Below, one piece after another: positions 23,181 through 36,659 of a stretch of 39,930 nucleotides of DNA (position 1 is its first letter; each line of letters opens with the position of its first letter). Both the position numbers and the translations under genes were made by a program. The notes below the pieces were generated by a model. It saw nothing but the letters and a program-made list of their open reading frames with translations. It did no database searches and was not told the DNA's origin. The stretch comes from an uncultured Pelagibacteraceae bacterium (GTDB taxonomy: Bacteria; Pseudomonadota; Alphaproteobacteria; Pelagibacterales; Pelagibacteraceae). The stretch lies in the NCBI GenBank assembly GCA_902568425.1, contig CACFQM010000007.1:1-39930 (forward strand), read 5' to 3'.

Positions 23181-24377
23181 TTAAAGACCAGCACTAGCGT
23201 TAAACGTAACTGTACCAGCTACTTTAGTCTTCCAGTTTTTACCACCTTTTGTGTACTCGATCATAACAGGTGTTCTGTTACCATCTCTACACTCAGGCGA
23301 ACCAGCAGCACAGAAGCTGATTGGTCCTGAAGCTAAACCAGTAAAGTTAGTTATACCAGCAATAGAGTCTCTTACAGCTTTTCTATCAGATGCAAGATCA
23401 CCGCTAAACTGTTTTTCTGCTTTTTCTAAAGCAGGTTTTAACATAGTTAATAAGTCCTCCATTTGAGAAAAGTCATGGCCAGGTACTACGCCATATCTAC
23501 TTTTAATATGTTTAACAAATTTTTTAGCGATTGGTCTTGTGTCAGAAGCAGCGAAAGCAGCAGCATAAGATACACCAACAGCTGCTTTACCAGCGTTAGT
23601 TGGTACTTCTACTTTTGATGCTACAGAGTTTGCAACTCTAGCTACGCTCTTAGGTATTCCCACTTCGTAAGATTGAACTAAGCAACGAACTGTTTCATCT
23701 ACTAAACCTGAACATACAAGTGCGTCTGGATTTGTTGCTTTAGCTTTTAATAAGTAAGATCTAAAGTCAGTTTCTTTTTCTCCAGCTTGCGCTTCATAAA
23801 CAGGATCAACACCGTATTCATCTTTCACGTAAGCAATCATAGATTTAGAAAAGTCCATACTAGCTTGGTCAGGTACATAGATATGAGCTATCTTCGTACC
23901 AGCATTTTCTGCTGTGAACTTAGCTTGTACTATTTTGTAAAATCTAGATGAAACAGGAACTCTGAATATCCATTCACTTCCTGTTAATGTGATTTTTGAA
24001 CTTGTTGAATGCGGAATGATTTGTGGAACTTTAGCTTTAGTAATTACTGGTACCATTGGTAAAGTAACTGAACTACAGCTAGATCCGATTATAACGTGAA
24101 CGTTATCTTGGTATGCAAGCTTCGTAGCATTTGCAACACCTTTCTCAGATTTACATTCATCATTGTAAAGTATCAAATCAACTTTTTTTCCGTTAATACC
24201 GCCAGAAGAATTCCACTCCGCAACAGTATCTTGAATTAACTCACCATGTTTATAGCCAACGTCAGAAAGCATTCTAAATGAAACACCAATTTTGATGTCC
24301 TTAGCTTGTGCTACTGAAGTGACCAATAAACTAACAGCGAGTAATAAACTTGAAAAAATTATATTTATTTTTTTCAT
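23181..24377 (-). CDS. livJ: Liv-type periplasmic substrate-binding protein
   Basis: The 398-residue protein has a Sec signal (MKKINIIFSS then a hydrophobic core, predicted cleavage VAQA|KD after residue 25) and the type I periplasmic-binding fold of LivJ/AmiC/UrtA-like proteins (IKIGVSFRML; LILYNDECKSEKG; VIIGSSCSSVTLPM). Four cysteines in pairs suggest disulfides. The ligand class covers branched-chain amino acids, amides, urea and aromatic or aliphatic acids, so the ligand here is not fixed. A very strong ribosome site (AAAGGGGGG, 4 bases before ATG) and a near-consensus promoter predict high expression. Neighbours suggest a carboxylate that is activated to a CoA ester. Confidence 0.88.
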   Translation of the reverse strand: MKKINIIFSSLLLAVSLLVTSVAQAKDIKIGVSFRMLSDVGYKHGELIQDTVAEWNSSGGINGKKVDLILYNDECKSEKGVANATKLAYQDNVHVIIGSSCSSVTLPMVPVITKAKVPQIIPHSTSSKITLTGSEWIFRVPVSSRFYKIVQAKFTAENAGTKIAHIYVPDQASMDFSKSMIAYVKDEYGVDPVYEAQAGEKETDFRSYLLKAKATNPDALVCSGLVDETVRCLVQSYEVGIPKSVARVANSVASKVEVPTNAGKAAVGVSYAAAFAASDTRPIAKKFVKHIKSRYGVVPGHDFSQMEDLLTMLKPALEKAEKQFSGDLASDRKAVRDSIAGITNFTGLASGPISFCAAGSPECRDGNRTPVMIEYTKGGKNWKTKVAGTVTFNASAGL

Positions 24378-34410: not shown

Positions 34411-34463
34411 ATTGGTTACGGAAGAAGGATTTGAACCTTCGACCTTCAGGTTATGAGCCTGAC
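34411..34463 (-). pseudogene. tRNA-fMet 3' fragment (att remnant)
   Basis: This 53-base stretch matches 50 of 53 bases of the 3' half of the intact tRNA-fMet at 36583-36659 (aligned to 36581-36633). It covers CCA, 3' acceptor strand, T-arm, variable loop and the anticodon arm with CAT. The three mismatches are all in the acceptor strand. The missing 5' half means it cannot form a working tRNA. It is the displaced chromosomal 3' end left when an element integrated into the tRNA gene. A weak resemblance to the D-arm continues to about 34480. Confidence 0.85.
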
Positions 34464-34537
34464 AACCGTACCTTTCTGCCAATAAAATTAACACAACACA
34501 TCAAAAAAGCTGGATAAAATTTCAAGATTTACTTAAC

Positions 34538-34558
34538 GTTGTGTCAGGGATGTGTCAG
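34538..34558 (+). repeat. Left arm-type repeat: two TGTGTCAG octamers, 11-bp period
   Basis: TGTGTCAG occurs at 34540-34547 and 34551-34558, one helical turn apart. The whole 21-bp unit matches the right-end unit at 36516-36536 at 19 of 21 positions. A further TGTGTCA (34588-34594) runs into the first base of the first cargo gene's ATG. Paired short repeats flanking the att core are what integrase arm domains or excisionases bind in lambda-like systems; that role is inferred. Confidence 0.7.
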
Positions 34559-34593
34559 TGGACATGACAGAAAAATAGTGTAAAATTTGTGTC

Positions 34594-34851
34594 ATGAGTG
34601 TATTAGCTGAACTTTTAAAAAAAGCTCCACAATCAGTAAAAGATAAGTACAAAATAAAAATTAGAGAAAAAGCTATCGAGCGAGTTAAAACAAATTTAGT
34701 AAAACATAACAAAACAATTGATGATTATTCAGACGATGAAATGGAAGCTCTAATACAAAAAGAAGAGGGCGGTTTGAACGAGGACGTTAAAAAGGGAATA
34801 CTTACTACTTTGTTGGTTGCAGCAGGAATTGAAATAGTTGCAGGTGGTTAA
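34594..34851 (+). CDS. Small hypothetical protein with hydrophobic C-terminal tail (element gene 1)
   Basis: I do not recognise a family. The 85-residue product is mostly charged helix (KKAPQSVKDKYKIKIREKA, then an acidic stretch DDYSDDEMEALIQKEEGG) and ends with about 16 hydrophobic residues (ILTTLLVAAGIEIVAGG), resembling a tail anchor or membrane-active tail. The C-terminal pattern, M..LI..EE then KKG then a hydrophobic end, recurs in element gene 3. The start lies on a TGTGTCATG sequence, so a protein bound at the left arm repeats could affect its expression. It overlaps the next gene by 8 bases. Confidence 0.65.
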   Translation: MSVLAELLKKAPQSVKDKYKIKIREKAIERVKTNLVKHNKTIDDYSDDEMEALIQKEEGGLNEDVKKGILTTLLVAAGIEIVAGG

Positions 34852-35260
34852 AAAAATAAATCAGATTATAACTTTAATTCTTGGCACAAAATTAATGATG
34901 TGGGCAGTGCCAGATACTAAACGTTTTATAAAAGGTACCATAATAACTGCAGCCGTCATACTTCTAACCATGTATTTTCATGGGGAATATTTAAGCTGGG
35001 CAGAATTATCTGGTCACACTACTTATTTAAGTATTTCATACCTAATTAAAAATTTAATAATTCTAATTTCATTAGTAATTTTGTTTTTTTACTTAAAAAA
35101 AACAAAAAAGAAAGTTTATCCAAAAGTAAAAGGTGAAGAAAAGATCTATACCAAGGGAACAAACGAAGACTACTTTGATAAATTTAGAAATAAAAAAAAG
35201 TTGAGATCAAGAGCTGAACAACTTCTAGAAAGAAATGAAAAAGATCAAAAAAAGGAATGA
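34844..35260 (+). CDS. Hypothetical membrane protein (element gene 2)
   Basis: The GTG at 34844 is preferred, overlapping the preceding TAA by 8 bases; a TTG at 34838 is the alternative. The approximately 138-residue protein has two clear membrane segments (about GTIITAAVILLTMYF and LIKNLIILISLVILFFYL) and possibly a weaker one at the N-terminus. A strongly charged C-terminal tail of about 55 residues ends KNEKDQKKE-like. No known domain recognised. It overlaps gene 3 by 26 bases, so the cluster is compressed like a phage or satellite genome. Confidence 0.6.
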   Translation: MVKKINQIITLILGTKLMMWAVPDTKRFIKGTIITAAVILLTMYFHGEYLSWAELSGHTTYLSISYLIKNLIILISLVILFFYLKKTKKKVYPKVKGEEKIYTKGTNEDYFDKFRNKKKLRSRAEQLLERNEKDQKKE

Positions 35261-35840
35261 GCTATCTATTTTTGAGGAATTTAGATTAAAAAAACCTACT
35301 AATGCTCGTTCATCCAAGGATTATCCAAGAGAGCACAGTCTCCATAAACTCAATTTATTCTGCGAAAAAAATAAAGATAATATTCCTATCTCTTTTTGGA
35401 AAAAAAAAAATATAAAAATAATTCAAGTAGATGGATTTGGGCAACCGATACTTTCAGGTGACAAAAATTATAAGAAAGTCTTACCTAAAGAATCTTCCTT
35501 AAAAAGATATAATAGCAAAATATTAGTTACAATTAATAAATATAAGATCCCAGTTTCATGGTGGACAAAAGATAAAAATGGAAAATTAATTCAATTAAAT
35601 ATTAAGGAAAAAGATGGAGGTGTTGAATTTAATATTAAATCTTGGTTAAGAAATGAAGCAATAAATGCTGTTGGACTTGAAATTCGTACTATGAAAAAGA
35701 AGGCTTATGAATATTCAAAAAAAGAACTGATGAATATGATTGAAGCAGAGGAGAATAAAATTATTAAAAAAGGAGGGATGAAAGCTGTAAGAATAGCAGC
35801 TTTATCAGCTATAGGTTTACCTTTCTTAGGATTTTTATAA
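35235..35840 (+). CDS. Hypothetical protein with internal repeat and hydrophobic tail (element gene 3)
   Basis: The 201-residue protein is basic at the N-terminus and has an internal duplication: NIPISFWKKKNIKIIQV (49-65) and KIPVSWWTKDKNGKLIQL (104-121), each preceded by a lysine-rich helix. The C-terminal 40 residues (KKELMNMIEAEE, KKGG, then a hydrophobic end AALSAIGLPFLGFL) echo the C-terminus of element gene 1. The tryptophan-rich repeats could be small binding modules. No family recognised. A 23-codon reading frame follows 3 bases after its stop. Confidence 0.62.
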   Translation: MKKIKKRNELSIFEEFRLKKPTNARSSKDYPREHSLHKLNLFCEKNKDNIPISFWKKKNIKIIQVDGFGQPILSGDKNYKKVLPKESSLKRYNSKILVTINKYKIPVSWWTKDKNGKLIQLNIKEKDGGVEFNIKSWLRNEAINAVGLEIRTMKKKAYEYSKKELMNMIEAEENKIIKKGGMKAVRIAALSAIGLPFLGFL

Positions 35841-35843
35841 AAT

Positions 35844-35915
35844 ATGCTTGAAACAATAATAGTTATAGAGATCGTTGCACTTTGTATAGCAGTATACCTA
35901 GCAAGCCAAAATTAA
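35844..35915 (+). CDS. Putative 23-residue single-helix membrane peptide (element gene 4)
   Basis: ATG 35844 to TAA 35915 encodes a peptide that is almost entirely hydrophobic (LETIIVIEIVALCIAVYLA), about one membrane span. It fits exactly between the stop of gene 3 (3 bases before) and the ATG of the YdjM-like gene (2 bases after), the spacing expected of a real small gene in this compact cluster. Without homologues it cannot be proved; it could also be a translational link for the next gene. Confidence 0.4.
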   Translation: MLETIIVIEIVALCIAVYLASQN

Positions 35916-35917
35916 AG

Positions 35918-36511
35918 ATGAATAAAGCCCATATAGTTACTTTGTTTGTTTCTTTATTGGCCGGACTTGAAATCCCTGACCTTGATTTAATTTTAATTTT
36001 TATTTTGGGACATAGATCAATCATAACTCATAGCATTATTTTACCTTATTTGTTTTACAAATTTTTAACCAAAGATGGAAAACAGAATTTTTTAGATAAG
36101 TATTTTTCTAAAATATTTACTTCCAATAAAATTAAAAGCGATTTTTTAGACTTTGCTTATATTGGCTTCTTGATTGGTATAGCCATTCATCTTTGTGCTG
36201 ATTTATTTCCAAAAGCATATGTTGGTTACGCATTGATTAAGTTGCCTTTTAATATTTCGATTGGAGCACCACTATCTATAATTTGGATGTTCGGAAATAT
36301 GTTTTTTGCATTAAAAATTGCCTTTAAAAAAATAAACGAGAAGAAAATAGATGAGAAAATAAAAAAATATATATTTTTTGGAATTATTATAGTTGGAATA
36401 ATATATATAATAAGTGACTCTAATCCTATTTCAAAAATAACTTTAATGATTATTTCATTTCCGATTATATGGTTTTATGCAAGAAAAGGTTTTAAGTTTA
36501 TCAAAAAATAG
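35918..36511 (+). CDS. YdjM-like (DUF457) membrane-bound metal-dependent hydrolase family protein
   Basis: Start chosen at ATG 35918 (an upstream in-frame TTG at 35882 would overlap the small peptide gene). The 197-residue protein has several membrane helices and the YdjM/DUF457 pattern: an early IPDLD acidic motif, HRSIITHS (His-rich, after the first helix pair) and a later HLCADLF. The family, which includes LexA-regulated YdjM, is annotated as a membrane-bound metal-dependent hydrolase of unclear substrate. It is the last cargo gene, ending 4 bases before the right arm repeat. Confidence 0.7.
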   Translation: MNKAHIVTLFVSLLAGLEIPDLDLILIFILGHRSIITHSIILPYLFYKFLTKDGKQNFLDKYFSKIFTSNKIKSDFLDFAYIGFLIGIAIHLCADLFPKAYVGYALIKLPFNISIGAPLSIIWMFGNMFFALKIAFKKINEKKIDEKIKKYIFFGIIIVGIIYIISDSNPISKITLMIISFPIIWFYARKGFKFIKK

Positions 36512-36515
36512 TTAT

Positions 36516-36536
36516 GTTGTGTCAGGCGTGTGTCAG
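36516..36536 (+). repeat. Right arm-type repeat: two TGTGTCAG octamers, 11-bp period
   Basis: TGTGTCAG at 36518-36525 and 36529-36536 repeats the left-end unit in the same orientation and with the same 11-bp period. It is 57 bases inside the right 40-bp att core; the left unit is 74 bases inside its core. Matching placement at both ends supports a shared recombinase-binding function rather than chance. Confidence 0.7.
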
Positions 36537-36582
36537 GAAAACTTTCTTTATGTATCTTAAAATAAAAAAGTGTTGGTGTTAT

Positions 36583-36659
<77 letters not shown>

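Follow-up and report, generated by a model that had tools for sequence, protein, structure and literature searches.

Paired octamers at the ends of an integrase-less element at the initiator tRNA gene of SAR11 bacteria as likely arm-type sites of a tyrosine integrase supplied in trans

The window, a stretch of 39,930 nucleotides from an uncultured Pelagibacteraceae bacterium, contains an element of 2170 bp (core to core) with a pair of octamers inside each end. A 40-bp tRNA copy bounds it on the left and the intact initiator tRNA-Met gene on the right. Sequence comparisons make it likely that these pairs are arm-type sites of a tyrosine integrase supplied in trans, and that the element is one member of a family of integrase-less cassettes. 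The cassettes are probably non-autonomous and mobilised in trans by an integrase that a neighbouring phage-satellite-like element encodes. SAR11 bacteria have very small genomes with few recognised mobile elements, and cassettes of ~0.5–3.3 kb without a mobility gene would escape searches that are based on integrases.

The left attachment core, which repeats the 3′ part of the initiator tRNA-Met gene on the reverse strand, was located at 34424–34463 by BLASTN, by the left-end search and by an empty site. It matches positions 36594–36633 exactly, which form the right attachment core within the intact tRNA gene (36583–36659, reverse strand), and the sequence around the left core departs from the family consensus. 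The empty site was found in the relative G033, in which the flanks are 94.8–94.9% identical on both sides and the element is missing. A direct-repeat core that is identical to a tRNA gene over its 3′ part, together with an empty-site counterpart, is the attachment architecture of tyrosine integrases.

All further features of the element are on the forward strand. The left core is followed by a conserved spacer (34464–34539) that extends to the first arm word, contains the stretch GTACCTTTCTGC and is common to relatives with other cargo. Two copies of the octamer TGTGTCAG follow at 34540–34547 and 34551–34558, with offsets of 99 and 110 bp relative to the core-word start. Two further copies at the right end, 36518–36525 and 36529–36536, lie 93 and 82 bp ahead of the next core word, and a second conserved spacer (GAAAACTTTCTTTA..., 36537–36582) reaches from there to the 3′ end of the tRNA gene. 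The 11-bp period, the common orientation and the identity of 19 out of 21 positions between the ends (BLASTN), all noted in the initial annotation, were reproduced. A promoter-like sequence, TGGACA-16-TAAAAT (34559–34586), was assigned ahead of the cargo from its position and from the equivalent stretch in relatives; in a promoter scan, sites of this kind were not in excess over shuffled sequences. The reported fifth, shortened copy, TGTGTCA (34588–34594), is also present, 147 bp from the core-word start, and shares its last base with the A of the ATG at 34594–34596, the start codon of the first cargo gene.

Four open reading frames constitute the cargo. ORF 1 (34594–34851, 85 aa), ORF 2 (34838–35260, up to 140 aa, a probable membrane protein) and ORF 3 (35235–35840, 201 aa) belong to no confident family, and a search of IMG/VR with ORF 3 yielded zero relatives. 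ORF 4 (35882–36511) encodes 209 aa if read from the first TTG (an ATG is at 35918) and has a weak match to YdjM that scores under the curated cut-off; apart from this match the cargo is uncharacterised. There is no integrase among the listed ORFs, in agreement with the earlier description of an element without a recombinase.

The octamer TGTGTCAG occurs six times in the window, where 0.41 occurrences are expected from dinucleotide shuffles. The two copies outside the element, at 23538 (forward strand) and 32272 (reverse strand), are unpaired. In the 756-kb assembly of the same genome the complete pair, TGTGTCAGNNNTGTGTCAG, has two occurrences, both at the ends of this element. Because of this excess and the lack of further pairs in the assembly, a chance origin of the octamer pairs is very unlikely. 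In 297 Pelagibacteraceae genomes we found 16 matches to the exact pair, distributed over nine genomes, and all 16 are at attachment ends at the initiator tRNA gene, usually with two pairs flanking one element; the reversed pair, used as a control in the same genomes, gave 0 matches. The initial annotation had proposed to check whether the pairs are exceptional, and by these counts they are, both in their own genome and in those of relatives.

A 171-bp query from the left end had strong matches reaching past the tRNA core in about 19 genomes. A search with the left-end pattern that covered 84,980 species, with one genome each, matched 17 contigs, all of Pelagibacteraceae and mainly from single-cell genomes. 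In IMG/VR the left-end pattern had no match, a result that is compatible with packaging in phage particles, and the exact octamer pair was present in 51 contigs, in none of them in the context of a cassette. Matches in a DNA search of phage records covered just 5–6% of the query, several of them in annotated tRNA-Met.

We compiled 21 complete elements of 538 to 3297 bp (core to core), mostly with differing cargo. The left words typically begin 99, 110 and 147 bp after the core-word start, and the right words begin at distances of 93 and 82 bp from the core word that follows; small local shifts occur in two of the 21 elements. A second type of right end, in which the pair is ~69 bp instead of 93 bp away from the core, was seen at six loci (L107, L108, L113, L117, L119 and L157). 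The cargo is co-directional and starts near the third word in nearly all elements; an exception is G180, which has a diverged core and one reversed gene. No integrase, and no remnant of an integrase, primase or terminase, was found among the listed ORFs of the 21 elements.

In diverged relatives the word itself is replaced by GTGTTCA, GCGTCA, TACGGCAG or similar sequences, and it changes in concert at all sites of an element. Among 11 representatives, permutation gave p = 0.0001 for left–right, 0.00002 for left–third and 0.001 for right–third covariation; with one element per close pair the values were 0.002, 0.00008 and 0.007, respectively. These p values are indicative, as we read the words ourselves at set offsets and shared ancestry contributes to the signal.

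A candidate for the foreign protein by which, according to the initial annotation, the sites should be recognised is encoded in the genome of the single cell AG-343-E17 (G056, locus L068). There, a 163-kb contig carries a cassette's right end and then a complete cassette, an element of ~5.6 kb and the intact tRNA gene. The ~5.6 kb element encodes a tyrosine integrase (PF00589, 2.4e-26) that matches PHROG phage integrases, an AAA_25 protein whose PHROG matches are primase/helicase-like, and a Terminase_2 small subunit, a gene content that resembles a phage satellite. The element's right pair, TGTGTCATACGTGTGTCAG, matches the right words of the cassette and is located directly ahead of the integrase start at 93 bp from the core, a distance identical to that in the cassettes. 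Its left words are 132, 144 and 180 bp from the core, giving a spacing of 0/12/48 compared to 0/11/48 in the cassettes, but they are placed 33 bp farther from the core. Thus, except for this left offset, the cassettes and the cognate integrase-bearing element have arm words in common on either side of the core, at set distances from it.

A second integrase, 76% identical to that of G056 and adjoining the same tRNA core, was found on the IMG/VR contig L076. Its right words, GGCGTCATACGAGCGTCAA, have the same 93-bp offset, and a 20-mer containing them recurs in the right arm of cassette G116b. The two integrases are 53% identical over residues 1–55 in the N-terminus and 83% over residues 161–335 in the catalytic part. 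In lambda-type integrases the arm sites are bound by the N-terminal domain, and the divergence is therefore concentrated where arm recognition is expected. At the left ends of both satellites we also observed an inverted word ~80 bp from the core, CGACACAA in G056 (L068 position 9692, core +79) and CGACGCAA in L076. These inverted words match each integrase's own word and were not seen in the cassettes.

The initial annotation had suggested looking for the same repeats beside integrase genes. An exact repeat of at least 6 bp with a period of 11, at most 70 bp upstream, precedes 18 of 22 related integrase genes (0.3 expected), whereas other periods are near background; the 22 genes are not independent, several being close relatives. 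Period 11 also peaks among the listed matches of IMG/VR integrase contigs with the initiator tRNA core (9 of 20 versus 0.14 expected, within L175–L253), where the pairs sit downstream of the CCA end. Two integrases of the G056 subfamily were found, one of them chromosomal: IMG/VR added L076 only, a search of 397 genomes gave no second chromosomal member, and the other integrases among the listed IMG/VR matches to the tRNA core are all distant. For most word classes we found no chromosomal helper, and an integrase-bearing neighbour is absent from most cassette arrays. Many of the surveyed assemblies are incomplete, and the lack of an integrase in the genome of the window is not secure because this genome is 66% complete. 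Two integrases together with several word classes constitute a natural experiment on how arm-site recognition by tyrosine integrases changes.

The cassettes share a standard anatomy of four parts: a tRNA-derived core, a left end that bears three arm words and a promoter-like sequence, co-directional cargo, and a right end that bears two arm words. In the model that we propose, phage-satellite-like elements at the same tRNA gene would provide an integrase in trans, whose N-terminal domain would bind the arm words and whose catalytic part would bind the core. Its binding could lead to integration, excision or tandem stacking of cassettes, which would travel with or after the helper. Several specificity classes would arise if the words change in concert with the helper integrase.

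Under this model, the fifth copy is most likely the third left arm site, since the three sites of the G056 satellite are spaced almost identically and none of the listed genes starts at the third of them. The initial annotation had taken the copy at the start codon as a hint of autoregulation. No binding protein can be recognised among the products of the cassette, and the idea of a dedicated autoregulatory site was abandoned in view of the satellite spacing. Repression of the cargo by bound integrase is possible.

The same features can be read differently. Cassettes might be decayed satellites or prophages that have lost the integrase, kept attL and attR and move in cis only, by accretion with an intact neighbouring element. 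The tandem with an intact integrase-bearing element in G056 agrees with such an origin, as do the documented CIMEs and integrase-less ssrA islands (PMC5704250, PMC3146451) and the cargo families, a lipoprotein and MORN proteins, that the L076 satellite has in common with cassettes. We nevertheless regard it as unlikely: compact standard ends recur with differing cargo in many genomes, free of integrase, primase or terminase remnants in the listed ORFs, the left end is unlike that of the satellite, most arrays lack an integrase-bearing neighbour, and the arms still covary, which requires continued use.

Concerning the function of the pairs, the initial annotation had named excisionase sites alongside recombinase arm-type sites. 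Excisionases, the directionality factors, likewise bind short direct repeats, and small hitchhiking elements can depend on a packaging motif alone (PMC11389934), so that the pairs might serve either of these purposes. Yet their presence on both arms at near-fixed distances from the core fits integrase arms better, and integrase-specific words stand just ahead of each integrase gene. Excisionase sites are usually confined to one arm. The arm-type part of the earlier proposal was thus retained, with near-fixed core distances and covarying ends in its favour, and an excisionase or packaging role appears quite improbable. The Pho box, which consists of 11-bp direct repeats of a CTGTCAT-like word, resembles TGTCA at period 11, and one copy is positioned at the start of the cargo, as would suit a transcription factor regulating the cargo genes. 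However, the word varies among elements although a host regulator would be common to them, the right pair faces the tRNA gene with no cargo gene downstream, and the 16 exact pairs in 297 genomes are all confined to element ends. A role as Pho boxes or other transcription-factor sites was rejected on these grounds as having hardly any probability.

CIMEs are defined by the retention of attL and attR and the lack of integration and transfer genes, features that the cassettes share; CIMEs were described as decayed ICEs or IMEs (PMC5704250). The closest published parallel that we found in the open-access literature is provided by 15 ssrA islands of Dehalococcoides without integration modules (PMC3146451), and an earlier mention of such cassettes is possible. 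As in these two systems, the cassettes are bounded by att sites, lack an integrase and can stand beside integrase-bearing islands in a tandem array at a single RNA gene. In contrast to both, their standard compact ends recur with differing cargo and the arm words of the two ends covary; moreover, the Dehalococcoides islands use serine recombinases (PMC3146451). Resembling integron cassettes and CALINs (PMC11389934), they are small, tandem and integrase-less with variable cargo and are probably moved by an integrase encoded elsewhere. Integron cassettes, however, have attC sites read by an integron integrase, whereas the ends found here consist of a tRNA core and direct repeats of 11-bp period, insertion takes place at a tRNA gene with a direct-repeat core, and each cassette has its own arm words and promoter-like sequence. 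Like MITEs (PMC11389934) they would be non-autonomous elements defined by ends that a foreign enzyme reads, but MITEs are geneless and moved by a transposase, while the cassettes have cargo and would move by site-specific recombination.

With PICMIs, VEIMEs and tycheposons (PMC10803314, PMC10872708) the cassettes share specific integration sites (tRNA genes for tycheposons), marine bacterial hosts and defence genes, and with PICMIs also the small size. The satellites known so far have been described with an integrase of their own, required for excision (PMC10803314). The cassettes are outside this definition because none of the 21 elements has its own integrase, in contrast to the adjacent element in G056. 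This raises the testable question whether phage satellites have smaller dependants of their own. At sites of the KplE1/HK620 type (PMC2951348) arm-type sites likewise lie beside a tRNA gene and overlap the promoter of the adjacent gene, which there is a negatively autoregulated integrase and in the cassettes unrelated cargo.

Several comparisons bear on mobility. Ends of G125 are 94–98% identical to those of G077 and G136, members of one genus, while the chromosomal flanks are 78–80% identical. The cargo of G072 and G136 is 97% identical, compared to 82% for the flanks, whereas the window and G072 have 95% identical flanks, similar ends and unrelated cargo. G142 (L111) and G272 (L107), from different genera, have 1.7 kb of cargo in common at 90% identity with flanks at 72%, and their arm words differ, TACGGCAG in L111 and TGTGTCAG in L107. 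Since cargo and ends exceed the flanks in identity, cassettes or cargo probably move horizontally; conservation of the ends may partly reflect selection on binding sites, which does not explain that of the cargo. The like cargo with unlike arm words in G142 and G272 indicates that cargo seems to cross specificity classes.

A wider reading would be a SAR11 integron-like system built on phage-type integration, that is, cassettes with a promoter but without an integrase would form a pool across the family at the initiator tRNA gene, with arm-word classes that coevolve with satellite integrases and cargo, including restriction genes, that crosses classes and stacks in tandem. We consider its chances to be evenly balanced.

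The cassettes can deliver restriction enzymes, proteases and nucleases to a highly abundant group of ocean bacteria. The cargo of G116b includes a restriction-modification pair (N6_Mtase, Methylase_S), and other elements encode Mrr-like and further restriction endonucleases, nuclease-like, trypsin-like and endonuclease/phosphatase proteins, and lipoproteins. The lipoproteins common to cassettes and the L076 satellite are 54–56% identical. Restriction-modification or restriction endonuclease genes were observed in the cargo at L112 (G116b), L072 (G136) and L156 (AG-337-C13).
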